Virus record (IMG/VR): IMGVR_UViG_3300046168_000085
Coordinates: 1 to 64,000 of that record
Origin: a virus
Direction: 5' to 3' (one strand)
DNA: 64,000 bases
Shown piece after piece: positions 26,156 through 58,367 of this stretch. Every line of letters begins with the position of its first letter. Within the stretch, counting starts at the first letter, position 1. A model generated the notes under the pieces. It had not been told where the DNA came from and did no database searches. It saw nothing but the letters and a program-made list of their open reading frames with translations. Both the position numbers and the translations under genes were made by a program.

Positions 26156-26830
26156 TTAGAAGGAAAGTGATAATCCAACCGAAAATACGGTTTCAGAATC
26201 ACTTCCTGCGTTATCATTGTCAACAAGGGCAATGCCTGCGAATGTATCCGCACCTCCAAGAGAGGAAGTCACCGTAGCACCTACACTATAATATGTGTAG
26301 TCAGCAGCGGCATCGACAGAACCCAATGAACCATCAAGAGTCAAACCAAACTGCTCTGAAAGAGAGATTGAGTGACCCACCGATAATTCTGCTACATCCG
26401 AATCATTATCTGAATCGATTGCATACAAAACACTTGGATTGAGGATAGTTTCAACGGACAAACCAAATCCGATTTCATCAGCACTTGTAGCACTTTGATA
26501 ATCGTAATTAGTATATCCGACACTCAAATCAACCTTGCCAAGATCATAACCCAAAGAAACTCCACTACGAAGTTCGTTGGTTTGACCTGCTTCCAACGCA
26601 TTAAAAGAATCAATGGATACTCCCAAAGATACTTTTTCAGAAACTGAAGTGGAAAGACCGAGAGAAGCACCAAGAGTGTCATCTGCTTGCTTTACACCAC
26701 GGAATGTACGTGTGTCTGTATAAGAAACTCCAGCTTTACCTGTAAGTTCCCCTGCGTTAACGGTTTGATATGCGAAAAACCCTCCACCAAGAACGGCGAC
26801 GGTTGCGATTATTTTAACTAATGTTTTCAT
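26156..26830 (-). CDS. TorF-like outer membrane beta-barrel protein
   Basis: A 224-residue protein with a signal peptide (TLVKIIATVAVLGGGFFAYQTVNA) and alternating short beta strands. It ends FSVGLSLSF, a terminal Phe typical of the outer-membrane insertion signal. Segments such as DTRTFRGVKQ resemble TorF-family putative porins. Two hairpins follow, so it is probably a separate, strongly expressed unit. A phage-coded surface protein could block superinfection or alter uptake; this is inference. Confidence 0.7.
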   Translation of the reverse strand: MKTLVKIIATVAVLGGGFFAYQTVNAGELTGKAGVSYTDTRTFRGVKQADDTLGASLGLSTSVSEKVSLGVSIDSFNALEAGQTNELRSGVSLGYDLGKVDLSVGYTNYDYQSATSADEIGFGLSVETILNPSVLYAIDSDNDSDVAELSVGHSISLSEQFGLTLDGSLGSVDAAADYTYYSVGATVTSSLGGADTFAGIALVDNDNAGSDSETVFSVGLSLSF

Positions 26831-27092: not shown

Positions 27093-28365
27093 TTATTGTT
27101 TTTTTTGAAAGTCGTATAAATTTTCTAATTTAAGAATATTGCTTAGTTCATTTAAAGCATTTCTACATTTTAATATAAACGAAGGCACAAATATGTCATC
27201 GTAAATTAAATTACCAACATAATACTTTTTAATCCATATTTTTAAATTATTATACAAATCTTCTGTAAAAACAACTCCAGTGTGAATGTTATTAAATTCA
27301 GTTTCATTCATAGATACTCTTAATCTTAAACACGCCGGACCACCTCCGTTCCATAAACTTTGCTCTAAATTTACATAACGAACCTTTCGTATATCATTTG
27401 TTTCTTCCGATGATGCTTTGTAGGTATTTGCGTACCAATGGACTTCTACGACATCGTATGGGTGCTATCAGCATATGCCCATCTTTATATTCAACTAACT
27501 GACTATTAAACAAATATGTTTCAACTGCAACATCAAGTGGTATCTCTGATTCAGTTATCCGTAGAAGATTTAGTTTCCCATTAAAAGAGTCCTGAAGTTT
27601 TGTAATAGTTTCTGCTTCCTCTGCTAATGCATTTTCGTGGTAAACGTACAAATTTTTATTTCCGACTCCAATTACATCGTGGTGAAATACACCAGCATCT
27701 ATGCTTTCCGCAGATTGTTGTGCGAATACTGCATTCTTGATTTGCATAATTTCCGCAACTTTTTTGGATGCTTCTAATGTTTGCCGTGCAGGATATTTTG
27801 ACGGAGTTTCTTCTGACGAATTATTTGAACGACCATACACAAAGAAATGTAATCCTTCTTCTTCATACGAATTGCAGAATCGTGTGTGATTGGCTGCACC
27901 TTCATCGTCCAACTCTCCATCACTATTCAAAGGAGAATGAATTAAAAATTTAGAGGTATCGTTGAAAATTTTATTTAATGTGATGTAAGTTTGAGGTGCT
28001 TCAATTCTACGATGATGTGTGAAATTCAAATTTGCAGTCAATAAATTTAACTTCCCATTCTCGGAATCTGTACTTGGTACGACAGTAGACGAATTAGCAA
28101 CCCACATACTGCTTGCAGATGAATTGATTGCCATATTATCATAATCTTCATAGTCGTTGATTAAAGGTCTTTCTTGTGGTGGTATAATTGCTTGTTTATG
28201 CCCCAAATCAAACATCAACTTCATTTTGTCTAAACCTTGCAATGCAGCTTCCCGTGGATTGCTCGGCTTGCTTTTGTTCGTTGCCGAGTGTACATTTCCG
28301 TTAGCAAGACCAGCATAATTGTGAGTTGGTCCAACCAACCCATCAAAGTTTACTTCAAACGACAT
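27093..28365 (-). CDS. astB: N-succinylarginine dihydrolase (frame-split)
   Basis: AstB hydrolyses N2-succinylarginine to N2-succinylornithine, two NH3 and CO2 (AST pathway step 2). The N-terminus VNFDGLVGPTHNYAGLANGN matches the family closely, and DDEGAANHTRF and SIDAGVFHHDVI carry the Glu and His regions of the active site. After a frame change near 27460 the frame resumes and reaches the catalytic Cys motif NGGGPACLRLRV near the C-terminus, then runs to 27093. The joined length (about 424 residues) fits the family. Neighbouring genes supply the other steps. Confidence 0.92.
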
Positions 28366-28379
28366 GGTATTATTATAGA

Positions 28380-28688
28380 TTACTTAATCTTACCAGTCAA
28401 CCATTCAAACATCATTCTCCAATCTGCCATCTTAGCATATATTGGATTGCTTGACAAAAACGCAGGCATATTACCTTCAAAAAGAAGATGACCCACAACC
28501 GCAAGTGGATAAACCACAAACGGAGTTAACAACAACCACCATAAACTAAGATTGAAAACGAACACGGATACAACAAATGCAATCGTTGCGACGTTTCCAA
28601 GCAAATGAAAAAACTTATTGATTGGTTTTGTGTGCTTACTCAGATAAAACTGATAGTATTCTTCAAAACTTTCAAACTTTTTTCCCAT
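28380..28688 (-). CDS. DUF962/Mpo1-like membrane protein
   Basis: A 102-residue protein with the family pattern: FEEYYQFYLSKHTKPINK, a His in FFHLLGN, two hydrophobic segments, then VGHLLFEGNMPAF and DWRMMFEW. The yeast member Mpo1 is an iron-dependent dioxygenase acting on 2-hydroxy fatty acids, and the His residues proposed to bind iron appear kept. It lies between astB and astA, which hints at a lipid link alongside the beta-oxidation genes. Activity is not shown for bacterial or phage members. Confidence 0.75.
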   Translation of the reverse strand: MGKKFESFEEYYQFYLSKHTKPINKFFHLLGNVATIAFVVSVFVFNLSLWWLLLTPFVVYPLAVVGHLLFEGNMPAFLSSNPIYAKMADWRMMFEWLTGKIK

Positions 28689-28724
28689 ATCAATAAATAT
28701 GGTATATATGAGTTTTTATAATAA

Positions 28725-28967
28725 TTACTTCTTCGCAACTTCTACATCAACCGAGTGCCAAGATTTTTCACACCCAACACTTTTACAAGCCTTTTTAATT
28801 GCTTCCGCAGTTCCTCTTGCTTTTACAGTTTCGGTGTGTCCTTTTTTGATGTCAACACCATCCACTTTTGCACTTTTGGTGAATTTTACTTCCCAATTGC
28901 TGAATGCTTCATTTAAAAAGTTTTGAATTTCTTCACGGATGATTGATTGTAGTTCTGTTTTCTTCAT
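28725..28967 (-). CDS. Small virion-type protein with IIREEI N-tag
   Basis: An 80-residue protein opening KKTELQSIIREEIQNFLNEA, the same helix type as in the protein at 4118-4498, followed by a small basic domain. This tag recurs in marine phage structural proteins (from memory). Its location between astA and astB is strong evidence that the catabolic genes sit in a phage genome. Confidence 0.5.
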   Translation of the reverse strand: MKKTELQSIIREEIQNFLNEAFSNWEVKFTKSAKVDGVDIKKGHTETVKARGTAEAIKKACKSVGCEKSWHSVDVEVAKK

Positions 28968-28990
28968 AACAATATATAAGTATTATCCAC

Positions 28991-29989
28991 TTACAGAAAA
29001 TATATACGAACTTTGTCGTTAATGTTTAGTTGTAATTTTTTTATGCTTTCTGCATCTACATGGATTTCTTGATTATCCCAATATTCTGCTTTTCCACGAC
29101 AACAACGAAATGGTTCGTATGTTGCAATTAAAGTATCTTTTGGGTCTTCCACGAAATTCCCTGTTAATTTACCCACCTTGCTTCTTTTAATCGCACGAAT
29201 GTTTTCAGTTTCACACGAATAAGTTGGTCCTGCTTCAAAAATATCAATCTCTCCGTTGAACTTGAAGTTCTGTTTCTGTAACATTCCCTTTGCAGGTTCC
29301 GTATTTTTGTGGACTTTACCAAGAACATCACGAACGTGTTTCGGAAGAAGATTAACGTAAATAGGATGACTCGGCATAAGGTCTTCTATAAACTGCTTGT
29401 TTTTCATACTAAGATAATCTGCATTGGTATAATCTATCTTTAGAAAATGCTTCATACAATATTCGTAAAATGGTGAATGACCTCTTGTTGTTACAACACC
29501 ACGCATTTCTGCGATTACTTCATTTTCAAAACGATCAAGATATTCTGCAATAAAAAGAAATCGTGAATAACTCAACAACTTTCCGTTTCCTTTTCTTGCA
29601 TTTGGAAGCAGATAAAGAGTTCCAATTTCAGTAGGACCGGAATGCTTTTTATCTAAACGCAATACTTCGTTTGAAGTTTTGATTTTAAGTTCCTTATTTT
29701 CGTGGACTTCAGTATCTGTTACATATGTGTAGAAAGGTTCAAATCCACCAACTTTGCTGATGATACCGCAGATGCCTACTAACTCGTTGTTGTTTTCCAT
29801 AACAAACAAATAACTTTCACCTTCAGGAGAATCCACCGATTTCTCAAATGAATATAATGTATGCTCAAGTCGTTTTTGAAGCAGAGATTTATCGTTCTGC
29901 AAAGTTGTTATACCAGTTCCTGCTTTTTTTGCAAGTTTTTGCAGTCCACTTAAATCATTCTTATTTATCTGCCGAACGATCATAATCAA
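28991..29989 (-). CDS. astA: Arginine N-succinyltransferase
   Basis: A 332-residue AstA that transfers succinate from succinyl-CoA to the alpha-amino group of arginine (AST pathway step 1). Family features are VRQINKNDLSGLQKLAKKAG, the GNAT-like core EIGTLYLLPNARKGNGKLLS, FIAEMRGV-like EVIAEMRGVVTTRGHSPFYE, and EAGPTYSCETENIRAI near the end. Length agrees with the family. It overlaps the upstream aminotransferase gene by 29 bases, so the two are co-expressed. Confidence 0.93.
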   Translation of the reverse strand: MIMIVRQINKNDLSGLQKLAKKAGTGITTLQNDKSLLQKRLEHTLYSFEKSVDSPEGESYLFVMENNNELVGICGIISKVGGFEPFYTYVTDTEVHENKELKIKTSNEVLRLDKKHSGPTEIGTLYLLPNARKGNGKLLSYSRFLFIAEYLDRFENEVIAEMRGVVTTRGHSPFYEYCMKHFLKIDYTNADYLSMKNKQFIEDLMPSHPIYVNLLPKHVRDVLGKVHKNTEPAKGMLQKQNFKFNGEIDIFEAGPTYSCETENIRAIKRSKVGKLTGNFVEDPKDTLIATYEPFRCCRGKAEYWDNQEIHVDAESIKKLQLNINDKVRIYFL

Positions 29990-31343
29990 ACTGAATTAAG
30001 GTATCAAGAGTAATTTTAACAACTTCATCAATATCTTTTTTACTCATTACAGGTGTCGGAAAAAGAAAACGAACCTTCGTTGGATTTTTTCCTGCAATGA
30101 ACGAAATCACTCCGTTTTTAAATAATTCGTGGACAAACTTCATTGTGACATCAGGAGACCCATCAAACACTTGAAATGCAAACATTGCACCGATACCTCC
30201 AATGTTTGAAACAAACTCAGAGTTTTTTAATCCACTTTCAAACAAATTAAAGTATTTGTGATTCTTGCCGATTTTATACAACTCAGGACCTGTTTTGCTT
30301 TTCTTGTCGTAAAACTTACCTTTAAGAATCTCTGTCAATACTACATCGGCTGCGAACAACGATGAAGTTGCTCCTGTGAAAGTTTGCGACACCAACCCTG
30401 GTCTTGGTTTGACATCTTCTTTGAAAATCGTTGCACATACTTGTGTGCTTTTTCCTACACAAACCAAATCAACATATTCATCTAATTCAAACATTTGAAA
30501 TGCGAATGGTTTATATGTTCTTGCAAAACTTTGTACTTCATCTACAAAGAAAAGTATATCGTGCTTTTTAAGACATTTTGCAATATCTTGAAGAATCTTT
30601 TTATCTCCAACATTGAATCCACCTTCTCCTTGAATAAGTTCTGCAACCATACACGAATGTTTACCAGGATGTCTTGCAATATGCTTTTCAAGATGCTTTA
30701 CTGCTGATTCTGCATTAAACGGAATATAATCAACTTTAAGTGTATCAGGTAATCCTTCACGATAATATGGTTTATCTGTGATTTGTGAAACACCTGTTGT
30801 TCTTCCGTGGAAACAATTTGCAAATGCAAGAATACGATCAGCAGGAAACTTTTTTTGAAATGCCATCTTGATTCCGTTTTCAACTGCCATTGCTCCACTT
30901 GTTGTTAAAAATACATGATCAAGTTTTGCTCCATGTAAATTTGCAACTTGTTTGAACTTTTCCATTACAACCAACGATTCTTCGTTTTGCTGAAGATTGC
31001 CTTGCATAACACAATCACTAAACGCAGAATTTAATGATGCTTCTACAATCTTCTCGTTTCCGTGTCCAAAATAATTTACACCAATTCCACCTATCATGTC
31101 GTATTTAACTGATCCATCGGTAAGTTCTACTAATGCACCATATCCTTTTCCTGTTCCGACATAAGGAAATACCAATCCACCACCACGAACATTTTTAAAT
31201 CGTTCTAGTAGTTCTTCGGTGATTTCTTTAGGTGCAGTTGGTGGTGTGTGTTTTAGTTTTTTTACGGACTTAATATATTCTTTTAATAAAATTTGTTTTG
31301 CATCATTTGTTGTTTTGTCTGTAAAAAAATCGTTGTACCACAT
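29961..31343 (-). CDS. Class III PLP aminotransferase, AstC role
   Basis: A 460-residue PLP-dependent class III aminotransferase. Motifs are TTSGAMAVENGIKMAF (cofactor phosphate site), CFHGRTTGV, FFVDEVQSFARTYKPFAF (Asp that contacts the pyridine ring) and CVGKSTQVCATI with the Schiff-base Lys. Context points to succinylornithine transaminase (AST step 3). However, it is longer than typical AstC and could act on lysine or acetylornithine. It has a good ribosome site (GGAG) 7 bases before ATG. Confidence 0.85.
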   Translation of the reverse strand: MWYNDFFTDKTTNDAKQILLKEYIKSVKKLKHTPPTAPKEITEELLERFKNVRGGGLVFPYVGTGKGYGALVELTDGSVKYDMIGGIGVNYFGHGNEKIVEASLNSAFSDCVMQGNLQQNEESLVVMEKFKQVANLHGAKLDHVFLTTSGAMAVENGIKMAFQKKFPADRILAFANCFHGRTTGVSQITDKPYYREGLPDTLKVDYIPFNAESAVKHLEKHIARHPGKHSCMVAELIQGEGGFNVGDKKILQDIAKCLKKHDILFFVDEVQSFARTYKPFAFQMFELDEYVDLVCVGKSTQVCATIFKEDVKPRPGLVSQTFTGATSSLFAADVVLTEILKGKFYDKKSKTGPELYKIGKNHKYFNLFESGLKNSEFVSNIGGIGAMFAFQVFDGSPDVTMKFVHELFKNGVISFIAGKNPTKVRFLFPTPVMSKKDIDEVVKITLDTLIQFDYDRSADK

Positions 31344-31347
31344 AATA

Positions 31348-32538
31348 TTACTCCTTTGTTATATTATATAAATATAACGCAGATAACTTTGTTCGTTCTT
31401 TTAACGAATCAATGAAAATCATTTCATCACGACTATGCATTCCATTTCCAACAGGACCAAGTGAATCCATATTAGGCAATCCATATCCGTTTAGTTTGTT
31501 TCCATCACTTGCTCCTCCACTCATAATCAACTTTAGTTTGTTCATTCCAAGTTGCTTCGCACATTTTTGAAGATGCTCGGTTATTTTCTTTGCTTCTTTG
31601 GTGTATGGTTTTGGAGGACTTGTAAATTTTCCGTGAAGTTCTGTACCTGGATACTTCTTACGCATATCACGATAAAAATTTTGCAGACGATGTTCAAACT
31701 CAGTTCTTTGTTTTTTGGTGACAACTCTGCAATTGAATCTGCATATTGCTAAATCAGGAACAACATTTGACGGACCACCTCCTTCTACTTTACCTAAATT
31801 GATCGTCATTCCTTCATTGATTGTCATCATAGTCTTTGACCAATTTATGAAATCAGCAACTCCGTAAAACGCATTTAATCCATCGTGAAAGCAACGGCCT
31901 GCGTGTGCAGATACTCCTCGGAATACCATTGTATAACTTCCTACTCCTTTACGTGATTTAACGATGCTTCCGTCAGGTAACGCAGGTTCATACAACAATC
32001 CAATATCATTGTTTCTTGCGGAAGTTTCTAAATAAGAAGAAGATGCAATGCTTCCAACTTCCTCATCTGGTAAAATTAATACTTCCCAACCAACTTTATT
32101 TTTAATATCACTATTTTCGTATGCAAGCAAAGCATACAACATAGTCATTAAACCACCTTTCATATCAAGTACTCCAGGACCCATCATTTTGTTTCCGTTT
32201 ATTGTAACTTTCTGAAAATCATGGTCTTTCGGATATACGGTGTCATAATGTCCACACAATAAAATTCGTGTTTCAGCAGTTTGTCGTTTACGCAAACGAA
32301 GAACTTTTCCGTGATTTAATTGTTTTATTTCTCCGTTGGAATTTATTGAATCAATTGGAGATAACTCGTATTGATTAATTTCATCTGGTTCAAGTTCTGA
32401 AAACATTTCTTGAAGTTGATCAATTGCGACATCAAGATTTTTTAAATTATAGGTATGAGTATTAAGATTTGAAAACGACTCAAGACGATCAAGCATTTCA
32501 TCAAACCTATCGTCTATTAAACTTAGGTAGTTGTTCAT
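31348..32538 (-). CDS. M20 metallohydrolase, possible AstE substitute
   Basis: A zinc-dependent M20 peptidase/deacylase of about 396 residues, carboxypeptidase G2-like. Metal-site motifs are LCGHYDTVYP, GPGVLDMKGG, PDEEVGSIAS, LLYEPALP, and a late SGGASDGN with HSRDE. No signal peptide, so cytoplasmic. The canonical AstE is an unrelated M14 enzyme and is absent here, while all other AST steps are next door. Carboxypeptidase G2 relatives hydrolyse N-acyl-glutamates, so cleavage of succinylglutamate (AST step 5) is a reasonable inference. Start chosen at MNNYLSLID. Confidence 0.78.
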   Translation of the reverse strand: MNNYLSLIDDRFDEMLDRLESFSNLNTHTYNLKNLDVAIDQLQEMFSELEPDEINQYELSPIDSINSNGEIKQLNHGKVLRLRKRQTAETRILLCGHYDTVYPKDHDFQKVTINGNKMMGPGVLDMKGGLMTMLYALLAYENSDIKNKVGWEVLILPDEEVGSIASSSYLETSARNNDIGLLYEPALPDGSIVKSRKGVGSYTMVFRGVSAHAGRCFHDGLNAFYGVADFINWSKTMMTINEGMTINLGKVEGGGPSNVVPDLAICRFNCRVVTKKQRTEFEHRLQNFYRDMRKKYPGTELHGKFTSPPKPYTKEAKKITEHLQKCAKQLGMNKLKLIMSGGASDGNKLNGYGLPNMDSLGPVGNGMHSRDEMIFIDSLKERTKLSALYLYNITKE

Positions 32539-32555
32539 ACCTATAAGTATCAAAC

Positions 32556-33927
32556 TTACAGAGTAATACCAGGTAGCAGTTTGCTTGGAAGTTCAGGAAC
32601 TTCAGTAAGATGTAAGGCAGTTGGGTGGCCGCAATGTTCAATAGTTGTATAACCACTTGGACGATTGCAACCACTCCAACCCATCCCACCGAAAGGAACA
32701 ACACTTGCACAACCCGTGGTAGGACGATTCCAATTTACTATTCCCGTTTTGAGTTCTGCTTCTGCTTTCCAAAATAAATTCTTGTTCTTGGTGATGACAC
32801 CTGATACTAATCCGTACTTGGTGTCGTTTGCAATTTCTATTGCGTGTTCAAAAGTATTACTGCGAATAACTTGAAGCAACGGACCAAAATATTCTTCGTC
32901 TGGTAAATTCTTTATATCAGTAACATCAATGATACCAGGTTCAACTAATCTACTTGATGTTCCATTAATTTGTTTAAATTCTTTTAATATAGTTCCACCT
33001 AAACTTACCAAATGTTTTTGAGCATCTAAAATTCCGTTGACTGCATTCACCGAAATCATTGGTCCCATAAAGGTTCTGGAGTCATCAGTATATTCTCCGA
33101 TAACAAGTTTATCAGCTGCATCAATTAAATTACGAATTATACGATCACCTTCACACGCAGTTAATCCTTTGTTAACAATCAATCTTCGTGTACAAGTGCA
33201 TCTCTGACCAGTAGAAATAAATGCAGATTGAAGAAGAATGTTTGTAGCAGTATTAAGACCACCTGCTTCTTCAACAATTGTTGCATTGTTTCCACCCATT
33301 TCCAATGCGACAATCTTTTCTGGGATAATCACTTAATGCTTTGTAAATGCTATGACCAACTTTTGTACTTCCTGTAAAAAACACTCCGTCTAACAACGAA
33401 TTATCAATTACATCTGCTCCACTTCCTTCGCATAAAATTACCACGTCTTTTGGTATTCCTGCTTGATGTAAAAGTTCCACCATTTTTCGTCCTGTTTCAG
33501 GAGTCAATGAACTTGGTTTAAATACAACAGAATTCCCTGCGAGAAGCAAAGGAACGATGTGTCCGTTTGGAAGATGACCAGGAAAGTTGAATGGACCAAT
33601 AACTGCAAAAACACCGAATGGTTTGAATCGTGCTTGTATTCCCATATCAGCATGAACTGATCGTAACGCATTAAGACGATCATTGTAAGATTCAAATGTT
33701 ACATCAATTTTTCCGACCATTGCTCCAACTTCAGATTTGGAATCCCATAAAGGTTTTCCGTGTTCTTTTGATATGGTCTCGGCGATTATATCAGAATTTG
33801 CTTCTAATAACTTTTTGTATTTTCTAAGAATACTTTTACGATGCTGAATTGTAGTTTTTCTCCAACTATCAAATCCTAGTTTGGCACTCTTGAATTTATC
33901 ATTTATTTCGTTTTTGCTAAGTGCCAT
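32556..33927 (-). CDS. astD: Succinylglutamate semialdehyde dehydrogenase (frame-split)
   Basis: AstD oxidises N-succinylglutamate 5-semialdehyde to N-succinylglutamate with NAD (AST step 4). Motifs are VIGPFNFPGHLPNGHIVPLL, FKPSSLTPETGRKM, FTGSTKVGHSIY, ALEMGGNNATIV (catalytic Glu) and ISTGQRCTCTRRLIV (catalytic Cys), all typical of AstD. Removing one base from a CCC run at 33322-33324 restores DYPEKIVALEMGG. Joined length is about 456 residues, slightly short of AstD at about 490. It overlaps the DUF1338 gene by one base. Confidence 0.92.
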
Positions 33928-34722
33928 TACTTATTATCCGTACTTTCAAAAATTTTATCGGCAGAACCTGCAATAAATCCGTCAAAATTATTATGACGCA
34001 ATGCAAATTCATAATAGCATCCAGGAATTTCAAATAATTGTCCCTCCTCTGAATCAAACTCAACGGATACATTTTCTGCCATAATACTTGATTGCTCTAG
34101 TCCTTGTTTAACTGAACCTTTTATTTCACCACCTGAATCATTTATTCTATATCCGTTTTCTTTCAAATATGAATTTACCTGTCCAAGATTTTCAAACGAA
34201 GAACAATCTGTGACACTTATTGTAAAATGATTAACGATAAAACCAAATGTGGCCACCCAAAGCTGCATACTCACTTTCTTCTTTTAAAAAGTCATAAGTT
34301 TCTTTTGTAATCATGCCCCACGGAGTTCCACAATTACAGAAATCAAAAGCATCTAGTTGCTCGTTGGATATTTGGTTAACTAATCTGTCAATCGTATCTT
34401 GTAATTCTTGTGAAAATTCTTCTAATCTTAGTTCACTAATAAATACCCGTGTCAAATCATCATCAGAATGTAAATAATATGTTGCATCGAGTTTCTTTTT
34501 TTCAAATGCTAAGTCTTCAACTTCTGAATATCCACTCTTTACAAAAGATTTGGCAAGAACACTACGATTAATACGTGGATGATTGAATGTTCTTAATGCA
34601 ATATGATCATTCTTTACCGAAGTTCCTTCGTGTTGCTCAATGAGTTTTTTTACTTTAACAACTTGCGGATTTACACGTGAATACATACTCCACATATCAT
34701 CAAACAATTCTCGTATATTCAT
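33927..34722 (-). CDS. DUF1338 protein, 2-oxoadipate dioxygenase-like (frame-split)
   Basis: The DUF1338 family includes HglS, a non-haem iron enzyme turning 2-oxoadipate into D-2-hydroxyglutarate in lysine breakdown. Here NDHIALRTFNHPRI gives the first conserved His. Removing one base at 34259-34261 joins SEYAAW to VATFGFIVNHFTISV, giving the second His motif, and the C-terminus has QLFEIPGCYYEFALR with the conserved Glu. Joined length is about 264 residues, a short family member. It lies first in the AST block, so it may serve amino acid breakdown. Confidence 0.8.
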
Positions 34723-34950: not shown

Positions 34951-35539
34951 TTATTCTTCTTCAACTCTTTCTACTTGCCAATTTTCTAATTCAACTGGAG
35001 TTTCGCGACCAAATATGCTGACAAGCACTTTTAGTTTTTGATGCTCTGTATCAACTTCTGCCAATTGCTCCTTGTAGACCAACAAAAGGTCCATCTAAAA
35101 TTGTAACTTGTTGACCTACATCATAATAAGACTTTGGAACTTCTTTATTTTGAAACTTTTGCTATATGATATTTGATCGTGTCAATTTCTTTGTTCTTAA
35201 TTGAACGGGATTTTTTCCACCTATAAATCCAGTTACACCATTTATTGAGTAATAAAGTAGTATGCATCTGCGTTTAATTCGGTTGGATTTTCTTCATCGA
35301 AAATATTCATACGCACAAAAAGATATCCTGGATATAATTTCCGTACACGTGCATTTTTTCTTACCTTGCTTAACCGTTGTAACAATTTCAGAAGGCATCA
35401 AAACCTCATAAAAATAATCTTTATGTTTAGGTTCAGTTTCCAAACCCTTTTCAATGAGGTTTTTTACTCTGTCTTCAAAATTGGATAATACTTTTAAAGT
35501 ATACCATTTATTTTTTTGTTCTGTTTGTAAAGTTTCCAT
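34951..35539 (-). CDS. NusG-like transcription factor with KOW domain (several frame breaks)
   Basis: The N-terminal NGN domain is [22 protein letters not shown] with [17 protein letters not shown], then [10 protein letters not shown] and NGVTGFIGG after frame corrections. A KOW domain follows: [20 protein letters not shown] joined to [19 protein letters not shown], ending [10 protein letters not shown]. At least four one-base shifts break the frame, so this is either badly affected by sequencing error or a decayed gene. An intact form would bind RNA polymerase and favour read-through of phage operons. Confidence 0.75.
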
Positions 35540-35591
35540 AATTTGTTTAGGTAATAATATATACAAAAATATATATATTTACAAGCACTTA

Positions 35592-36641: not shown

Positions 36642-38111
36642 TCAACTTTTTTGCCAAACCCACACTGGTTCTCCGAAACTTCCTTCACGTTCGTGATACT
36701 CGGTGTCCATTTTGCTATCGTCAGTATCTTCCGCAGTTCCGATTCCAAGGCAGTTTGGTCGTTTTGCCATTTCCATTCCAAAGCACTCTACATAACTTGC
36801 ATTATTCTTTTTACTAAGATGCTCGTTCATTGGATCACAAATTTTTAACCACTGCTTCCCACCCTTCATACCTTTGCTTGTGGTATTTACATCACTTATA
36901 TTTACCATCAGTAACCCACCTTCTTTTAATGTTGTTAAAACATTATTTAATGCTTTGTGCAAAAAGTCTTTATTCCAACGATCAATATTTTTATGACGAA
37001 CCCAACTTTGTGTGTCATCATAACTATATCGTTCCACGGAAAAATAAGGTGGACTGGTAAATATTAAGTCAACCGAGTCTTTATATTCTGTCAAATCTGC
37101 ATCTTCTGCCGGTGAAGGAATGAAATCAGTTTCTTTTTTCTTACCTAACCAGGATTCATAGAATTCTTTTTGTTTATCATATATAGGATGATTTTCTGTC
37201 CGTGGGTCAATGCCAATATATTTTGTTGCTTTACTTGCATAAAAACCACACAATCTGTCACCCCAACCCATGCTAAAATCTAATACAACTTGTGCATCTC
37301 TATACTTTTCTGGTTCGTTAGTTTTTTTATCCAATATTATTTTATCATCTTCATCAGTTTTATGATGAGTTGGTACATTATCTCTAAATTTCTTTAGTAA
37401 TGAATCAGGATAAAACTGATAAATTAATTTTGCGACATTGGGTTTGAATTGACTGCAAATGTATTTACGCAATCCTATACTTGTTCTTAAAGTAGATTTA
37501 TCAACTTTTTCTGCTTTTAATGTAAACAAACTTCCCATTAAACTTGTCATGAATTCTTTGCTATTCCATGTACGCAAGGGTCCAGGTGATACACTTCCAT
37601 CTACACTCCAACGATTTTCTTGCTGAAAATAGTTACTTGCTTTATTACCTTTATTGTTTCTTTTTAAGATACGATCACTTAAAGGAAATTTTTTTGAATA
37701 TACAGACCTAGCAAACCAAGGAGTTTCTGTGAATAAAGAATCTTGTCTTTGTTTTTTTACTATGCTAGAACTTTTTTCGTGTTTTTCTTTTTGCTCATTC
37801 GTCATTTCAAACGATTCGTAAAAAGATGTATTTACACTCTTCGCCTCTTCCGTAGTTTCGTTTAAATCTTTGTATGTGAATTTTTCCAATAAATGAAAAT
37901 CTTTTTCTGCTTCGTATGGACAGATCTCCATATACGGAAGATCATATTGCATTAAAATTTCTGCAAGAGTTTCTTTTATATCTTCTTTGTCGTACTTCTC
38001 TTTTAATCGTGTCCAATTTACTGGATCAATTTCATAATAAGGTTTTACTAGTTTTCCCTCGGAATCTTTATATTCTTCTTTTATATAATTTTTAAACTCT
38101 TCAATAATCAT
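36642..38111 (-). CDS. DNA methyltransferase-like protein (TSPPYF, copy B)
   Basis: A 489-residue paralogue of the protein at 14041-15111. The AdoMet motif region is LDFSMGWGDRLCGFYASKA with GIDPRT, and motif IV is FTSPPYFSVERYSYDDTQSW. A long N-terminal region (about 230 residues) may recognise the target. It sits between phage regulators and the serine dehydratase gene. Likely a phage DNA methylase; substrate not proven. Confidence 0.75.
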   Translation of the reverse strand: MIIEEFKNYIKEEYKDSEGKLVKPYYEIDPVNWTRLKEKYDKEDIKETLAEILMQYDLPYMEICPYEAEKDFHLLEKFTYKDLNETTEEAKSVNTSFYESFEMTNEQKEKHEKSSSIVKKQRQDSLFTETPWFARSVYSKKFPLSDRILKRNNKGNKASNYFQQENRWSVDGSVSPGPLRTWNSKEFMTSLMGSLFTLKAEKVDKSTLRTSIGLRKYICSQFKPNVAKLIYQFYPDSLLKKFRDNVPTHHKTDEDDKIILDKKTNEPEKYRDAQVVLDFSMGWGDRLCGFYASKATKYIGIDPRTENHPIYDKQKEFYESWLGKKKETDFIPSPAEDADLTEYKDSVDLIFTSPPYFSVERYSYDDTQSWVRHKNIDRWNKDFLHKALNNVLTTLKEGGLLMVNISDVNTTSKGMKGGKQWLKICDPMNEHLSKKNNASYVECFGMEMAKRPNCLGIGTAEDTDDSKMDTEYHEREGSFGEPVWVWQKS

Positions 38112-38155: not shown

Positions 38156-39508
38156 TTAGCACTCAGTTACATTTACTGCCAATCCACCTTTACTTGTTTC
38201 TTTGTATTTGCTTTTCATATCAGCACCAGTTGCTTTCATTGTTTTTATTACGTCATCCAATGAAATTTTTGTATCGTTTTCATTAAGCATTGCCATACGA
38301 CTTGCATTAATTGCCTTTCCAACTCCAATTGCATTTCGTTCTATACATGGTATTTGTACAAGTCCTGCAACAGGATCACAAGTTAATCCTAAATTATGCT
38401 CCATAGCAATTTCGGCCGCATTTTCTACTTGCTTTAAAGTTCCTCCTACAATTTCAGTTAATGCACCGGCTGCCATACTACAAGCAACTCCCACTTCTCC
38501 TTGGCATCCTACTTCTGCACCTGATAAACTTGCATTCATTTTGTATAACATAGCAATTACTCCAGCCGTTAATAAAAACTTGATTTCCCAATCTTCTGAT
38601 TTTTCGTGGACATACTCTTTAATATACATCATTGTTGCGGGAATAATACCAGATGCTCCGTTGGTAGGAGCAGTAACAACACGATTCATAGCTGCGTTTT
38701 CTTCGTTAACCGCAATCGCACAAATGCTTGAATAATCAAGAAATGCTTGATTATCAAGTTCATTGTTTTTAAGAAAGTTTTCGTACATAATCGCAGCTCT
38801 TCGTTCTACATTTATTGTACCAGGAAGCATACCTTGAGTTGTTAATCCTCTGTCTACGCATTCTTGCATTATTCTCCATATTCTGCGTAATTCTGTTTTG
38901 GTTGTTTTTTCTTTTCTGAAACACTTTTCATTTTCCAACACCACATCAGATATTTTCAAATTACGATTTTCTGCGATAGTAAATAATTCTTCCGCACAAG
39001 AAAATTCATTGGTGAGTTTTCTTTTGGAAGTTTTAACTTTATTCTTTTTTGCGTTACTTTCTGTTACCACAAAACCACCACCAATGCTATAATACATTCT
39101 CGTAGCAACTTCTTTACTTTTTGTATAAGCATAAAACTTTATTCCATTGGGATGATACGGAAGTTTTTTCTTTTTGTTGAAAATTATATCATTCTGCGTG
39201 AATTTAATTTTACGAATGCCACCGAGTTTTATTTCTCCGTCAAGAGAATCAACTTCATTTAATTGTTGTTGTTTTACTTGATCCGGTGCATAATTCAATA
39301 AACCGAGTTGAATTGCAATCGGAGTTCCGTGACCTTCACCTGTTAATGCAAGTGAACCAAACAACTCAATTTTGATTGAATCGACTTCACCAAATACTTT
39401 TTTGTGTTTCAAAAAAGAAACAAACTTTCTTGATGCTTGGATAGGACCTGTGGTGTGTGAACTTGAAGGACCTATTCCAATTTTGAAAAAGTCAAGAACA
39501 CTATACAT
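38156..39508 (-). CDS. sdaA: L-serine dehydratase (iron-sulphur type)
   Basis: A 450-residue single-chain L-serine ammonia-lyase that gives pyruvate and NH3. The beta domain begins SVLDFFKIGIGPSSSHTTGP, the diagnostic motif. The alpha domain has APTNGASGIIPATMMY, GCQGEVGVACSMAAGA and GLTCDPVAGLVQIPC, with the Cys residues that bind the 4Fe-4S cluster. It is full length and undamaged. Its ATG overlaps the stop of the acyl-CoA dehydrogenase gene. A metabolic gene of this kind is very unusual in a phage. Confidence 0.95.
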   Translation of the reverse strand: MYSVLDFFKIGIGPSSSHTTGPIQASRKFVSFLKHKKVFGEVDSIKIELFGSLALTGEGHGTPIAIQLGLLNYAPDQVKQQQLNEVDSLDGEIKLGGIRKIKFTQNDIIFNKKKKLPYHPNGIKFYAYTKSKEVATRMYYSIGGGFVVTESNAKKNKVKTSKRKLTNEFSCAEELFTIAENRNLKISDVVLENEKCFRKEKTTKTELRRIWRIMQECVDRGLTTQGMLPGTINVERRAAIMYENFLKNNELDNQAFLDYSSICAIAVNEENAAMNRVVTAPTNGASGIIPATMMYIKEYVHEKSEDWEIKFLLTAGVIAMLYKMNASLSGAEVGCQGEVGVACSMAAGALTEIVGGTLKQVENAAEIAMEHNLGLTCDPVAGLVQIPCIERNAIGVGKAINASRMAMLNENDTKISLDDVIKTMKATGADMKSKYKETSKGGLAVNVTEC

Positions 39509-41358
39509 TATTCAAGAAACTTGAATGTACCACCTAGAATTTTCTTTGCGAAAGAATAATTCTTTTTGTCGTTATTGTTGCTCATTCCACTAAAGTTGTT
39601 TTTGATTTTGATTTTTGCTTCACTAAAAACCACATCCATCAACTCAAGATATTCAGCTGCTTTTTCAGGATCATCTTTGATCATGCTATCAATACGTAAT
39701 GCACACGCAGATATTACAAACAACTCAGTTCCAATTTCAGTCAAACGACCAAGAAGCATTTGTTGTTTGTCTAATGAAGGACCGTATCGTGCCATTGAGT
39801 GAAATAGTTTTCTGCTTAATTTCTTGCTTGTTCTTGAAACATAAAGAAGATACTTTTTGACTGCTCCATTTACTCCCGTGGGTCCTGAATTGAAAGTTGG
39901 TAACCATTGTTTTGGATACCAAGTTGCATAGTGTATTCCTGCTCCGATAGCTGCCTTTAAACGAACCATCAATGGAAGACGTGAATCAAGAACTGCTCCG
40001 GCTGCTTTAAGATGTGGATCAAGTGCTTCACGTGCCAAAAGCAAACGCATAATTTCACTTGAACCTTCAAAGATCATATTGATACGACAATCACGAAGAA
40101 ATCTTTCCACAGGAATTGGATCAGAACCACGATTGCGAAGTGAGTCAGCAGTTTCGTAACCACGACCACCACGTATTTGCATCGTTTCGTCTGCTACTTT
40201 CCATGCTTCTTCTGTTCCCCACATTTTACACATTGCAGATTCCACACGAATATCTGCTTTTTTACCATCCACTAAACTTGATGTAAAAAGAACGATACTT
40301 TCAGTTGCGAAATTCTTGGCCGCAATCTTAGCAATTTTATCACCAATTGCTTGGTGTTTACCAATAGCACATCCCCACTGTTCACGTGATGAACCCCACT
40401 CACGACAAATCTTTAAGCAACTACGCATAAGTCCCACACAAGCAGCCGGTAATGTAAGACGACCTGTATTCAATGTGCTAAGTGCAACCTTGAGTCCTTT
40501 GCCTTCTCCTGCTACCAAATTCTCCACAGGTATCTTTACATCGGTAAATCTTACAACACCATTATACAATGCTTTAAGACCCATAAAACGACATCGAGTA
40601 ACTACTTCTACACCAGGTGTATCCATATCAAGAATAAATGCCGAAATGCTTTTACGCATTTTGCCTTTAATTTCTGTATCAGGTGTTCTTGCCATTACAA
40701 TAATAACACTTGCTTTTACTCCATTTGTACACCAAAGTTTTTCTCCGTTTAAAACATAATGAGTTTTATCTTCTGATAACTCTGCGTAAACCGTCATTTG
40801 TGCAGGATCACTTCCTACAGTTTCTTCAGTCAACGCAAACGCACTAATTTCTCCTTTACCAAAACGAGGAAGATGCTTTTTCTTTTGTTCGTCTGTTCCG
40901 TAAAGTAACAATGGTTGAGGAACTCCGATACTTTGATGTGCTGATACTAACGCAGTTATATTTCCGCACACTTCACCCAACTTCATAGCCGCACGTGAAT
41001 AATTTGTTTGTGATAAACCACGACCACCATATTCCGTTGGAATTTTAATTGCGAATGCACCAATCTTTGCAAGTTCTTTAAATACTTCATCAGGAATTTC
41101 ACCTTCACGATCAATTGCGTCTGCATCTACATACTTGTCTAACACATCACCCAATTCATTCAAGAAAATATCTCCTTTTGCTTTGTCTTCTGCTTTTTGT
41201 TTCGGAAATGGATAAATCAAATCATAATTTGCTTCACCTGTAAACAAACCACCACTAAAACTTTTTGTTCCTTTTTTTCCTTTATCACGTGCAGCCTCGG
41301 CTGCTTCCAAGGCATCTGCTTTACCCTTGGACATTTTTGAAGTATCTATTTCACTCAT
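39508..41358 (-). CDS. Acyl-CoA dehydrogenase
   Basis: A 616-residue FAD enzyme for the first step of fatty acid beta-oxidation. Features: a Lys-rich N-terminus, the N-terminal helical domain with KIPTEYGGRGLSQTNYS, FAD/substrate motifs ALTEETVGSDPAQM and LNGEKLWCTNG, RGGRGYETADSL, and IFEGSSEIMRLLLAREA where the Glu is the catalytic base. The C-terminal extension of about 170 residues recalls very-long-chain enzymes (VLCAD-like). Chain-length preference is not certain. Electrons would go to host ETF. Confidence 0.92.
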   Translation of the reverse strand: MSEIDTSKMSKGKADALEAAEAARDKGKKGTKSFSGGLFTGEANYDLIYPFPKQKAEDKAKGDIFLNELGDVLDKYVDADAIDREGEIPDEVFKELAKIGAFAIKIPTEYGGRGLSQTNYSRAAMKLGEVCGNITALVSAHQSIGVPQPLLLYGTDEQKKKHLPRFGKGEISAFALTEETVGSDPAQMTVYAELSEDKTHYVLNGEKLWCTNGVKASVIIVMARTPDTEIKGKMRKSISAFILDMDTPGVEVVTRCRFMGLKALYNGVVRFTDVKIPVENLVAGEGKGLKVALSTLNTGRLTLPAACVGLMRSCLKICREWGSSREQWGCAIGKHQAIGDKIAKIAAKNFATESIVLFTSSLVDGKKADIRVESAMCKMWGTEEAWKVADETMQIRGGRGYETADSLRNRGSDPIPVERFLRDCRINMIFEGSSEIMRLLLAREALDPHLKAAGAVLDSRLPLMVRLKAAIGAGIHYATWYPKQWLPTFNSGPTGVNGAVKKYLLYVSRTSKKLSRKLFHSMARYGPSLDKQQMLLGRLTEIGTELFVISACALRIDSMIKDDPEKAAEYLELMDVVFSEAKIKIKNNFSGMSNNNDKKNYSFAKKILGGTFKFLE

Positions 41359-41360
41359 TG

Positions 41361-43451
41361 TTATTTATCCTCGTAGAATTTTTTGTTTGTTTTTGCGTAT
41401 TCAAGAAGCATATCACACGGAGTAAAGTATGCATCTTTTTTTGCTAGTTCTTGTAATTTTTGAACAACTTTTAATGCTCCTAAATTATCAAGATACGAAA
41501 TTGGTCCTCCACGAAATGGAGCCCATCCAGTTCCCATTATCATTCCAAAGTCTACATCCTTTGGACTATTTACAACTTCTTCTTGTAAACAACGAACTGC
41601 TTCGTTAACCATAATTAAAATTAAACGATCAACAATTTCTTCATCTGCAATTTCTTGATTTATATAAGCAGATTGGATTGCTGATGTAGGTAACTTAGAA
41701 CTTACACCTGTTGATTTTCCATTTGTATATTTGTAAAATCCACGACCACTTTTTTTACCTACATCTTTGTTGTCGATCATTAACTTCAAAAACTCTGATT
41801 TAGGAAAATTAGTTTCAAGACGATTCAGCAGATCATCTGCGACGTGTTGACATACATCCCCTCCTACTTCATCAATTAAACGAAACGGTCCCATTGGCAT
41901 TCCAAACTTACGCAACAACTTATCGACTCGTTCAATGTCTGCACCACACGAAACCATATAAACTGCTTCAATCAAATATGGCATAAGAATTCTATTAACA
42001 AGAAATCCAGGTGAATCTTTTACCACCACAGGAAGTTTACCTGTCTTTTTAACAAACTGAGTTGCTTTTAAAACGGTTTCCTCGGAGGTACATTCTCCAC
42101 GAACCACTTCCACTAATTTCATTTTGTGAACAGGATTAAAATAATGTATTCCGACCACTCGTTCTTTATGTTGCATTTTTTCTGCGACATCTACAATACT
42201 AAGTGCTGATGTGTTTGTTGCAAGAATTGTATCATCACGAACAAGTGTTTCAAGTTCCGCAAATAAATCCTGCTTGATTTCAAGTTGCTCAATCGCAGCT
42301 TCTACTACTAAATCAACACTTTTCATTGGCATAGATTCGGTGATAGGTGTAACATTATCAAACTTACTTGATGCTTCTGCTTTAGTCATCACTCGTTTGC
42401 TTACAGCTGCTGAGTACAATTTACTTATGCTTGCAATTCCTTTTGCTACAAACTCTGGTTTAATATCCTTGAGCAATACTTTGATTCCTCTTGAACTAAT
42501 CCATTGTGCAATACCTGCACCCATCACTCCTGCTCCTATAACCGCAGTATTTTTTACTTTAAAGTCTTTGTCACTTTTTGTTTTCTTGCTTCGTTCTTGT
42601 AAAAAGAATATGTTCACCAAATTGTTTGCTACATCTGAAGTAAGAAGTTCTGCAAATGCTTTTTGTTCAAGTTTAAGTGATTCTTCACGACTTACACCAA
42701 GACCTTTCACCATAACATCAATTGCTTTCAACGGAGCAGGATAAACGCCACCTGTTGTTTTAATAACATTTTTGGTTGCTTTGCTTTTTGCGATATACTT
42801 CAACGGAAAACGATTTAATAAATGAGACTTGTATTTCTTTTTTCCATTTAGTAACATTGCTTTTGCAGATGCTTCCAAATTTTCTTTGTATACCGCACGA
42901 TCAATCATTCCAAGTTTAAGTGCCAACTTTGGAACAACCACTTTACCTGCTAGAATAATTCCCATTGCTCCAGGTAACCCAATCATTCTTGGTAAACGAG
43001 TTGATCCACCCCAAGCAGGAAGAATTCCAAGCATCGTTTCTGGTAAACCAATTTTAGTTGCTGAATCTAATGTTGCAACACGATGATCACACGCAAGTGC
43101 AAGTTCATATCCACCACCCAAACACGCACCGTGAATTGCAGCCACAGTTACACACGACAAATCCTCAATACGATCAAATGTATGCTGACCAAGTTTTACT
43201 AAATAAGAAATTCTTTCAGGTGTAGGATCATCTGCGAATGATTTCAAATCCGCACCTGCGATGAATATACTTGGTTTAGCACTTTGAAATACCACTCCTT
43301 TGATCGTCTTACTGCTATCTTCTATAAAATCAAGATGATCATTTAATTCTGCAAACATATTTTCATCAAACACGTTAGCAATTGAATTTTCTTGATCAAA
43401 TGTTATTGTAACAACATCATTTAATTGTTCTAGTTTAATTGACTTGCTCAT
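41361..43451 (-). CDS. fadJ: FadJ-type enoyl-CoA hydratase / 3-hydroxyacyl-CoA dehydrogenase
   Basis: A 696-residue two-enzyme protein for beta-oxidation steps 2 and 3. The hydratase domain (residues 1-190) has the oxyanion-hole sequences IAGADLKSF and CLGGGYELALACDH and both catalytic Glu residues (YELAL and GLPETMLG). The dehydrogenase domain has the NAD motif VIGAGVMGAGIAQW (about 305), VGIHYFNPVHKMKLVEVV with catalytic His, and DSPGFLVNRILMPYL. The C-terminal half-domain with MGTGWAPFRGGP is complete. It ends three bases before the acyl-CoA dehydrogenase start. Confidence 0.95.
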   Translation of the reverse strand: MSKSIKLEQLNDVVTITFDQENSIANVFDENMFAELNDHLDFIEDSSKTIKGVVFQSAKPSIFIAGADLKSFADDPTPERISYLVKLGQHTFDRIEDLSCVTVAAIHGACLGGGYELALACDHRVATLDSATKIGLPETMLGILPAWGGSTRLPRMIGLPGAMGIILAGKVVVPKLALKLGMIDRAVYKENLEASAKAMLLNGKKKYKSHLLNRFPLKYIAKSKATKNVIKTTGGVYPAPLKAIDVMVKGLGVSREESLKLEQKAFAELLTSDVANNLVNIFFLQERSKKTKSDKDFKVKNTAVIGAGVMGAGIAQWISSRGIKVLLKDIKPEFVAKGIASISKLYSAAVSKRVMTKAEASSKFDNVTPITESMPMKSVDLVVEAAIEQLEIKQDLFAELETLVRDDTILATNTSALSIVDVAEKMQHKERVVGIHYFNPVHKMKLVEVVRGECTSEETVLKATQFVKKTGKLPVVVKDSPGFLVNRILMPYLIEAVYMVSCGADIERVDKLLRKFGMPMGPFRLIDEVGGDVCQHVADDLLNRLETNFPKSEFLKLMIDNKDVGKKSGRGFYKYTNGKSTGVSSKLPTSAIQSAYINQEIADEEIVDRLILIMVNEAVRCLQEEVVNSPKDVDFGMIMGTGWAPFRGGPISYLDNLGALKVVQKLQELAKKDAYFTPCDMLLEYAKTNKKFYEDK

Positions 43452-43452: not shown

Positions 43453-44700
43453 TTATTCTCTTTCCAAAATTATTGCACCACCTTGGCCACCACCAATACA
43501 AAGTGAAATTAATGCTCGTTTACCACCACGACGTTCAAGTTCCTTCAAAGTTGTAAGTGCAATACGTGAACCACTTGAACCAACTGGATGACCAAGAGCA
43601 ATTGCTCCTCCATTGACATTCAATTTGGCAAAATCAACTTCACCCAAGTTTGTGGTTTTTTTCAGTTGCTTGCAAACCGCAAGAACTTGGGCAGCGAATG
43701 CTTCGTTGATTTCAATTAAATCAAAGTCATCAAGTTTATATCCAGTTTCTTCGCATACTTTCTGAATCGCATAAACTGGTCCTAATCCCATTCTTTCAGG
43801 GATCACATCCTGCATATGCGTATGCGGAAATTCTACCCAATGGATTCCAATTGTTTTGCTTAACTGCATTTCATCTGCAATCAACAATGACACTGCTCCG
43901 TCTGTAATTTGCGATGCGTTGCCCGCAGTTACAGTTCCTTGTTTGCGATCAAATACAGGTTTAAGTTTTTCCAACGCACCCATACTTTGCTCACCACGAA
44001 TTCCATTGTCTGCATCAACGAATGTTCCGTCTGCGAAATAAAATGGGGAAATCTCAGATGACATTTTTTCTATTGCCACAAATGCTTTCAAATGAGATTC
44101 TAATGCAAACTTATCTTGATGATATCGTGTTACTCCACTTTCTCTTGCGATCAATTCAGCAGTTTCACCCATATTCATTCCAACCGTGATATCACTCAAT
44201 CCTAATCGTAAACTGATTATAGGTGCGAAGTCTTTTGGACGGAAACTCAATATCGTATGAAGACGATCACGAAATGTTCTACACTTACTTAACTTGGTAA
44301 ATTTATCAACTGCACTTGAACGATATAAAAATGGTGCTTGTGTCATATTCTCCGTTCCCCCACTTAAATAAACACTTCCACGATCAGCATTAATTTTATC
44401 AGATGCTTGTGTAATTGATTCAAAACCACTTGCACAATTACGATGAACCGTATAAGCAGGAACACTCTTGGGTACTCCCGATTTAAGTGAAATTACACGT
44501 GTGATGTTTGCGGTGTCTGCTGGTTGACATACACAACCCATTACACTTTCGTCAATTACATCGGGATTCAAATCCATCTTTGCAAACAATGCTTTTGTTG
44601 CAGAAACTCCGAGGTCTGCAGCTGATGTTTTAGCAAAGGTCGTACCCATTTTACAAAAAGGAGTCCGAGTACCATCTACAAGATATACATTTTTTTTCAT
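43453..44700 (-). CDS. fadI: Acetyl-CoA acyltransferase (thiolase)
   Basis: A 415-residue thiolase for the last beta-oxidation step, releasing acetyl-CoA. The nucleophilic Cys is in HRNCASGFESI (about residue 90), the active His in NVNGGAIALGHPVGSSGSR (about 370), and the second Cys in LCIGGGQGGAII (about 400). Full length, undamaged. It is the promoter-proximal gene of the fadI-fadJ-acyl-CoA dehydrogenase-sdaA run, with gaps of 0-5 bases. The symbol is by pairing with FadJ; FadA is equally possible. Confidence 0.94.
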   Translation of the reverse strand: MKKNVYLVDGTRTPFCKMGTTFAKTSAADLGVSATKALFAKMDLNPDVIDESVMGCVCQPADTANITRVISLKSGVPKSVPAYTVHRNCASGFESITQASDKINADRGSVYLSGGTENMTQAPFLYRSSAVDKFTKLSKCRTFRDRLHTILSFRPKDFAPIISLRLGLSDITVGMNMGETAELIARESGVTRYHQDKFALESHLKAFVAIEKMSSEISPFYFADGTFVDADNGIRGEQSMGALEKLKPVFDRKQGTVTAGNASQITDGAVSLLIADEMQLSKTIGIHWVEFPHTHMQDVIPERMGLGPVYAIQKVCEETGYKLDDFDLIEINEAFAAQVLAVCKQLKKTTNLGEVDFAKLNVNGGAIALGHPVGSSGSRIALTTLKELERRGGKRALISLCIGGGQGGAIILERE

Positions 44701-44782
44701 AACCGTTACATTATATATATCACAATTTTATACATATCGTCAACTATATAACGAACAATATACATAAATGGTTTATATTAAT

Positions 44783-44977: not shown

Positions 44978-44994
44978 TCCAAGAATTGCAATGA

Positions 44995-46069
44995 CTATTT
45001 CAAATTGTTTGCTGTGTGTTTGCTTCTGCCATTTCTAAATCCAAGTTTATTTAACTCTTCAAGCAACACATCTGAAATTTCAATTCCGTTTTTATGAACA
45101 TCAATAGATGTATTATATTCAGTTTCTCCTGGAACTAAAACTTCTTCACCTCGTTTACTTTTGCTTGATTTTATTTCACGCATCACATCACCAACATTTT
45201 TTTTGAAATCTTTAAGTCCGCAAAGTTTTCTGGATCAATGCAAATAAAGAAATGACCAATATCATAATTTGGATTTTTGTATTTCCTTCATACAAGTCCA
45301 CTTAGTTTGCTCATATAAGCACCACTTTGAAATGCCGAACACATAAGTTCTATTGCAATACTTAAACCAGAACCTTTGTGTCCTCCATCTGGTGTCAACG
45401 CCGCAATTCCTTGTTTTAACCAACGCAATGATCTTTCAAATGTTAGATTTTGATTTTCAGAAACTATCGCACAATTAGGAACATAGTTGTCTGGTGTTTT
45501 TCTTGCCATTACTTCCAAATCACCTCTTTGATAAACTGATGTTGCACAATCAATACTAAACGGATATTTTTCATCAGATGGAAATGCTATTGCGTATGGA
45601 TTCGTACCCATCTTTGGTTCTACTCACCATGAGGAGCAACCGCAGGTCGTGCGTTTGTAAAACTCATTCCCACTAAATTATGCTGAGTTGCATAACGACT
45701 ATAATAACTTGCAATTCCGTAATGTGAGGAATTTCTAACCGCAACACAACTAATTCCATGTTCTTGAGTTTTTGCAATTGCTTGGTTCATTGCATACTTG
45801 CCAACGATTTGTCCAAGTGCATTGTGACCATCAATAGTTACACAGGCTTTGTTGTCACGAACAATCTCGGGAGTTGCATTTACATCGATTACACCATCTT
45901 GAATTCGTTTTATATAATAACTAAGTCTGCTTAATCCGTGTGATTTAAATCCAAGTTCGTCAGCACTTAATAATACATCAGCACATACACTTGAATATTT
46001 GCTTGGTACTTTGTTTTTTTCAAATACCCACTTCGCAAACGCAATTGCATCTTTAAGTTTTATTTTCAC
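44995..46069 (-). CDS. LDH2/malate dehydrogenase-family oxidoreductase (frame-split)
   Basis: An NAD(P)-dependent oxidoreductase of the malate/L-lactate (LDH2), ureidoglycolate and sulfolactate dehydrogenase family. Motifs are ADELGFKSHGLSRL (conserved His), NSSHYGIASYY (catalytic His region), FTNARPAVAPHG, PKMGTNPYAIAFPS, PDGGHKGSGLSIAIELM, and EEVLVPGETEY near the C-terminus. Three one-base shifts (near 45615, 45290 and 45225) split it. The GTG start at 46069 is inferred. Substrate unknown; it extends the catabolic island. Confidence 0.85.
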
Positions 46070-46463
46070 TTTGCTCTTTCGATTTTCTAATTTCACGTGC
46101 TTTTCTGATTTTCCTACGCATATACGGTTTCAGAAAATAATGACCAATGAATCCCTTGATAGTTGGTTTACCCACTTGCACTCTTAGTTTATTTTCATAA
46201 CGAGTCATTGGACAATCTAATACTCTTGAAAAGGAAATTAATATAATAAACGAACACAAAGGCAAACATACATACCACGGAAATCCAAACGGTGTTAAAC
46301 CCTGAAATGCAAGAATGAAAAATGCACTAAAGTTACCAATTACAACCACCCAATGCAATAGAACTACAATCAGTAGTTTAAGATGCCTTAAAGGATTGGT
46401 TGGCAAAAATCTAAGAAACCGTTTTTCGTCAGAAGGTTCTGTTATGTTTTCATCGTTCTCCAT
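46053..46463 (-). CDS. Membrane protein, DUF2784-like
   Basis: A 136-residue protein with two or three transmembrane helices. The core HWVVVIGNFSAFFILAFQG, then SRVLDCPMTRYENKLR and GFIGHYFLKP, resembles the DUF2784 pattern. The C-terminus is strongly basic (RRKIRKAREIRKSK), so cytoplasmic. Function unknown. Confidence 0.55.
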   Translation of the reverse strand: MENDENITEPSDEKRFLRFLPTNPLRHLKLLIVVLLHWVVVIGNFSAFFILAFQGLTPFGFPWYVCLPLCSFIILISFSRVLDCPMTRYENKLRVQVGKPTIKGFIGHYFLKPYMRRKIRKAREIRKSKEQSENKT

Positions 46464-46481
46464 ATAGAATAAATATAAAAA

Positions 46482-46703: not shown

Positions 46704-46727
46704 TAACTATATATATGTACATATCAA

Positions 46728-47735: not shown

Positions 47736-47770
47736 AATAATATATATAACGATTCAGTAGTTAAAAAAGT

Positions 47771-58363: not shown

Positions 58364-58367
58364 AATC

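Follow-up and report, generated by a model that had tools for sequence, protein, structure and literature searches.

We analyzed a 64,000-base stretch of DNA, referred to as the window, comprising bases 1-64000 of the IMG/VR virus record IMGVR_UViG_3300046168_000085 (80,388 bases; the record is incomplete). GC content is ~0.34 throughout, and the minus strand holds nearly all long open reading frames (ORFs). On that strand, between 27.1 and 34.7 kb, lie genes for AstB, AstA, a class III aminotransferase, a PRK07338-type M20 hydrolase, AstD, and an HglS/DUF1338 protein, collectively the arginine succinyltransferase (AST) block (Table 1). A sequence-only reading of the window had proposed a near-complete AST pathway in a phage-type genome, with the first five of these enzymes together on one strand and their catalytic motifs visible. 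Pfam and NCBIfam models located all five as described, and the pathway appears complete on paper; that reading had missed the HglS gene, directly upstream of AstD, and the single frame switch in each of AstB, AstD, and HglS. Of the two small genes it placed between astA and astB, the DUF962 protein is Mpo1-like, and the other, thought to be of virion type, is an 80-amino-acid ORF without a Pfam match. The NusG and methyltransferase genes said to follow were also found, the latter an N4/N6 DNA methyltransferase.

AstA and AstB exceed the PF04958 and PF04996 cutoffs; the stricter NCBIfam equivalog cutoffs are not reached, and AstA reaches the AOST subfamily model. For AstD, TIGR03240 and NF006992 are the best models for both halves, yet the gene is split (the frames meet at about 33316-33353) and N-terminally short. 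All six enzymes keep their catalytic residues. AstB has the catalytic Glu, His, and Cys, with the Cys in the second frame; alignment to planctomycete AstB places the C-terminal part containing GGGPACLRLR in the other frame. AstD carries ALEMGGNN and GQRCTC, the aminotransferase keeps the GKxxQVC lysine, and the M20 hydrolase keeps its metal ligands. The HglS/DUF1338 family is characterized by a His-His-Glu iron triad and a substrate arginine (PMC7286885), both of which align in the HglS encoded here.

The surroundings of the block are those of a tailed phage. To its right are ribonucleotide reductase (RNR; NrdA and NrdB), an exonuclease, UvsX, SSB, and a PrkA-YhbH-SpoVR module, followed by a weak DNA polymerase match and then a tape measure protein, baseplate hub, tail tube, and tail sheath. 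To its left are peptide deformylase, IF3, a phage TROVE-type RNA-binding protein, a Dda-like helicase, an HNH endonuclease, and tRNA-Ser. Tail genes and replication hallmark genes thus share the contig with the AST block; a scan of ORFs from the incomplete 80-kb record turned up no major capsid protein, terminase, or portal. A PrkA scan of IMG/VR retrieved ~30 contigs whose proteins are 75-97% identical, as well as huge phages that are more distant; in GenBank, the huge phage LR756511 (595 kb) carries the same module. By gene content, the contig is a member of a large-phage lineage, because these relatives share its module and phage genes flank the block. The module itself (58241-63079; YhbH is DUF444), conserved across the ~30 IMG/VR contigs and LR756511, is of a kind characteristic of starvation and sporulation responses in bacteria. 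Just downstream of AstB, at 26156-26830, lies a signal-peptide protein with an outer-membrane beta-barrel look and no family match.

Table 1. Genes of the AST block and the adjoining catabolic genes, with window positions. G323 and G343 are related phage contigs described in the text.
Feature	Position	Strand	Evidence
AstB, N-succinylarginine dihydrolase	27093..28365	-	PF04996, E=1e-113; two overlapping frames, 27394-28365 and about 27093-27407
Mpo1-like (DUF962) protein	28380..28688	-	PF06127, E=2e-24
80-amino-acid ORF between AstA and Mpo1-like	28725..28967	-	No Pfam match
AstA, arginine N-succinyltransferase	28991..29989	-	PF04958, E=1e-110; groups with Planctomycetota in AstA tree
Class III aminotransferase, planctomycete ast type, predicted succinylornithine transaminase (AstC role)	29961..31343	-	PF00202 (Aminotran_3, E=9e-47)
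M20 hydrolase, PRK07338 type, predicted succinylglutamate desuccinylase (AstE role)	31348..32553	-	NF005602 above cutoff, E=4e-126
AstD, succinylglutamate semialdehyde dehydrogenase, two frames, short N-terminus	32556..33927	-	TIGR03240 on both halves, 2e-86 and 6e-64
HglS/DUF1338 protein, two frames (two ORFs)	33927..34722	-	PF07063 on both halves; HHE and Arg residues aligned
NusG-like gene, frame-shifted	34954..35566	-	Intact, 209 aa, in G323
DNA methyltransferase (N4/N6)	36642..38111	-	PF01555
SdaA, L-serine ammonia-lyase	38156..39508	-	TIGR00720 above cutoff; 85% in G323
FadE-like acyl-CoA dehydrogenase (VLCAD/ACAD9-like)	39508..41358	-	Pfam; 95% in G323, 65-67% in G343
FadB/FadJ-like enoyl-CoA hydratase/3-hydroxyacyl-CoA dehydrogenase	41361..43451	-	81% in G323
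FadA/FadI-like thiolase	43453..44700	-	89% in G323
Ldh_2 malate/lactate-type dehydrogenase, frame-shifted	44998..46111	-	Intact, 376 aa, in G323

A planctomycete-type pathway with two probable enzyme replacements

The phage cluster encodes no AstC orthologue and no AstE; a planctomycete operon aminotransferase stands in place of the former and the PRK07338 M20 hydrolase in place of the latter. We compared 40 bacterial loci that encode AstA, AstD, and AstB together, scoring absence within the examined stretch. At the desuccinylase step, 21 loci had AstE only, 14 had M20 only, five had neither, and none had both. At the transaminase step, AstC alone occurred in 27 and the planctomycete type alone in six, with seven having neither and, again, none having both. 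Because the alternatives never co-occur, a pattern that fits non-orthologous replacement, the M20 hydrolase and the aminotransferase are credible substitutes for AstE and AstC, and a pathway complete on paper is likewise credible, with this replacement pattern as the main evidence. The mutual exclusivity of PRK07338 M20 and AstE is a feature of the bacterial ast clusters (L003-L126) in its own right.

The block had been described as unlike an ordinary bacterial operon, which needs correcting: the gene set matches a known Planctomycetota operon type, ordered M20-aminotransferase-AstA-AstD-AstB with HglS close by (for example, loci L118, L120, L124, and L125). The phage shares all six enzyme families with these operons and retains the M20-aminotransferase-AstA order, so that the distinctive aminotransferase adjoins both M20 and AstA. 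It differs in having AstD and HglS shifted upstream, two small genes before AstB, AT-rich phage codon usage, sequence identities of about 36-48%, and a phage location. With enterobacterial astCADBE, it has in common AstA, AstB, AstD, and the reaction sequence, whereas AstC is replaced by the distant aminotransferase, AstE is replaced by M20, and HglS is added.

Sequence comparisons point to the same source. Over most of its length, the phage aminotransferase shares <30% identity with AstC-type enzymes, compared with 42-46% identity to the planctomycete operon aminotransferases over the full length and up to 48% over matched parts; an aminotransferase of this type occurs in 19 of 294 Planctomycetota genomes (E below 1e-40), where it belongs to the operon just described. 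The AstA phylogeny called for by the sequence-only reading (116 rows, built with a quick method and SH-aLRT support only) places the phage among planctomycete sequences, where it joins the Pirellula group with a support of 94, and separates it from the Pseudomonadota and SAR324 clade (support 100). The phage branch is long, and its exact sister is unsure. Planctomycetes also gave the best matches to FadE (56%), FadB (42%), and SdaA (52%) in a comparison with 21 genomes, a set rich in planctomycetes. A gammaproteobacterial origin was rejected on account of the low aminotransferase identity to AstC and the position of AstA outside the Pseudomonadota clade. On these affinities, the phage host is likely a member of Planctomycetota.

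The proposed route would begin with AstA succinylating arginine at the expense of succinyl-CoA, after which AstB would remove two NH3 and CO2 to yield succinylornithine. The planctomycete-type aminotransferase would transfer the amino group to 2-oxoglutarate, AstD would oxidize the resulting semialdehyde with NAD, and the M20 hydrolase would split succinylglutamate into glutamate and succinate. The AST pathway converts arginine, succinyl-CoA, 2-oxoglutarate, and NAD to two glutamate, succinate, CoA, two NH3, CO2, and NADH. The products listed in the sequence-only reading (glutamate, succinate, two NH3, CO2, and NADH) agree with this balance; the need for succinyl-CoA and 2-oxoglutarate and the yield of two glutamates per arginine had been left out. 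HglS, an operon companion in bacteria, may channel lysine-derived 2-oxoadipate into the scheme as 2-hydroxyglutarate.

The known action of HglS on 2-oxoadipate in lysine catabolism (PMC7286885) raises the alternative that the cluster serves another purpose, such as lysine/ornithine metabolism or polyamine supply, instead of arginine catabolism. The distance of the aminotransferase from AstC, with a substrate that is only predicted, would suit that alternative. We nonetheless judge it improbable, given that AstA, AstB, and AstD belong to specific AST families and that bacterial ast clusters regularly include HglS and M20.

Probable phage ownership of the AST block

The best explanation, which we hold with fairly good confidence, is that the window is part of the genome of a large myovirus-like phage whose host probably belongs to Planctomycetota, and that this phage carries a catabolic island including a planctomycete-type ast operon with rearranged gene order. 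In codon usage, the AST block correlates with the right backbone at r=0.985 and with the left part at 0.983; random backbone codon samples of equal size average 0.992 (lowest 0.972). Planctomycete operons compared with the phage backbone gave 0.52-0.78, and the most AT-rich operon gave 0.87. The dinucleotide distance of the block is 41.6 to the right part and 22.6 to the left, at the low end of the 37-88 found among backbone windows. Further support comes from IMGVR_UViG_3300022920_000504 (G323; 57.6 kb), a close relative from an independent metagenome that we used as an intact-ORF reference. It carries Ldh_2, FadA, FadB, FadE, SdaA, the methyltransferase, and NusG in the same order between RNR and its contig end, so the junction of catabolic genes with phage genes recurs there. 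In a distant relative (G343), FadA-FadB-FadE likewise lies near RNR, with a DUF1501 gene. The DUF1501 protein is encoded at L283:6239-7519; this family is abundant in Planctomycetota.

Several observations weigh against this explanation. The AST block is known from one contig only, and G323 stops 47 bases beyond NusG, just before the expected position of HglS. Three of the six AST-block genes carry frame switches. AstD is also missing the 35-50 residues with which bacterial AstD begins, its ORF starting at the HglS stop codon. FadE of the phage's type also occurs in other bacteria, and the planctomycete host is putative.

The restriction to a single contig, together with the frequency of long-read-like indels in it and the ends of several related contigs at 44.7-48 kb, the island border, would be expected if a planctomycete ast operon had been mis-joined into a phage contig during assembly. 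Such a chimera would require two joins and would have to account for a codon and dinucleotide signature that fits the phage and not planctomycetes, AT-rich ones included. Moreover, the gene order, with its interleaved small ORFs, is unlike that of any planctomycete operon found, most of the block is only ~36-48% identical to all bacterial homologues found, and the catabolic genes next to it are carried by a phage contig from another metagenome (G323). We consider a chimera very unlikely. The contig ends, which fall in five related phages (G324, G325, G326, G339, and G340) at window positions 44700-48100, may reflect a strain-variable island or slot that breaks assembly.

The frame switches and the AstD deletion could also mean that the block is genuine phage DNA, albeit a degraded, non-functional remnant of an acquired operon. 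Genes that are single ORFs in G323 are similarly broken in the window: the NrdA region is in four pieces, a 521-amino-acid SpoVR-region protein in three, Ldh_2 in three, and NusG and the tail sheath in at least two each. By our own count, ~17 switches fall in ~45 kb of contig and three in the 7.6-kb AST block; the rates agree at about one per 2.5 kb. Short one-base runs contain or adjoin the switches of AstB, AstD, and HglS. Because essential phage genes show an equal rate and their G323 copies are intact, the AST frame switches look like assembly indels, and the same observations rule out programmed frameshifting in AstB, AstD, and HglS. The short AstD N-terminus, unlike the switches, would be a real deletion. 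Given also that AstA, the aminotransferase, and M20 are unbroken, with 36-48% identity to their bacterial counterparts, and that no catalytic residues are lost, a remnant is unlikely, although somewhat less so than a chimera.

A larger catabolic island and its place among phages

The AST cluster proved to be part of a larger island of amino acid and fatty acid catabolism that runs on upstream to 46.1 kb through SdaA, FadE, FadB, FadA, and Ldh_2. FadE, FadB, and FadA make up a full beta-oxidation set and could carry out one full turn to acetyl-CoA, while SdaA would release pyruvate and ammonia. No acyl-CoA synthetase was noticed, and the host would therefore have to activate the fatty acids; viral acyl-CoA synthetases have been reported (PMC10401857). 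Acting together, the island's enzymes may convert the infected cell's amino acids and fatty acids into acetyl-CoA, NADH, glutamate, ammonia, and tricarboxylic acid cycle intermediates, which would supply large-genome replication. VLCAD-type acyl-CoA dehydrogenases (43%) also occur in two further viral contigs (L241 and L242, IMGVR 3300010885), one of which has the PrkA module.

The impression that no phage AST pathway had been described was borne out in the virus collections and open literature searched. Among related records of the PrkA-phage lineage, which share the module and, in close members, RNR, UvsX, tail genes, and sometimes FadE/B/A, AstA was absent from all 50 and the planctomycete-type aminotransferase from all 40 examined. 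IMG/VR scans for AstA, M20, and the aminotransferase returned no matches, and the viral database search proposed for AstA and AstB yielded no convincing counterpart: four IMG/VR AstB matches, all at contig edges, were read as host DNA beside proviruses. GenBank phage records contained no AstA or AstB except those named Acinetobacter phage MD-2021a, which we set aside since the contig examined is chromosome-like, has an ordinary astCADBE operon, and appears to be mislabelled bacterial DNA; L003 and other CAKLQ records of that name look like bacterial chromosome contigs. The open-access literature (subscription papers lay outside the search) held no paper joining arginine succinyltransferase with auxiliary metabolic genes and nothing relevant on phage AST, arginine-degradation auxiliary genes, or planctomycete phages.

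Known phage auxiliary sets are mostly single genes or genes of photosynthesis, carbon, nucleotide, or sulfur metabolism. As in those sets, metabolic genes of host origin stand in the island next to RNR, NusG, and further phage genes. Phage auxiliary metabolism is already known; what appears new is a whole amino acid degradation pathway with lineage-specific replacements beside beta-oxidation. A bolder picture, to which we give an even chance, is that of a huge Planctomycetota phage with a complete amino acid and fatty acid catabolic module (AST, serine deaminase, beta-oxidation, and Ldh_2) with which infected cells would consume their own protein and lipid, the AST part occupying a variable slot of an otherwise conserved lineage.

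With this finding, a widespread lineage of large phages gains a candidate host phylum, Planctomycetota, and the proposed substitutions of AstE by the M20 hydrolase and of AstC by the aminotransferase become open to direct testing. Auxiliary genes of phages tend to mend one metabolic step at a time; a complete degradative pathway, with its lineage-specific replacements and together with beta-oxidation, would mean that some phages supply the catabolism of host protein and lipid.

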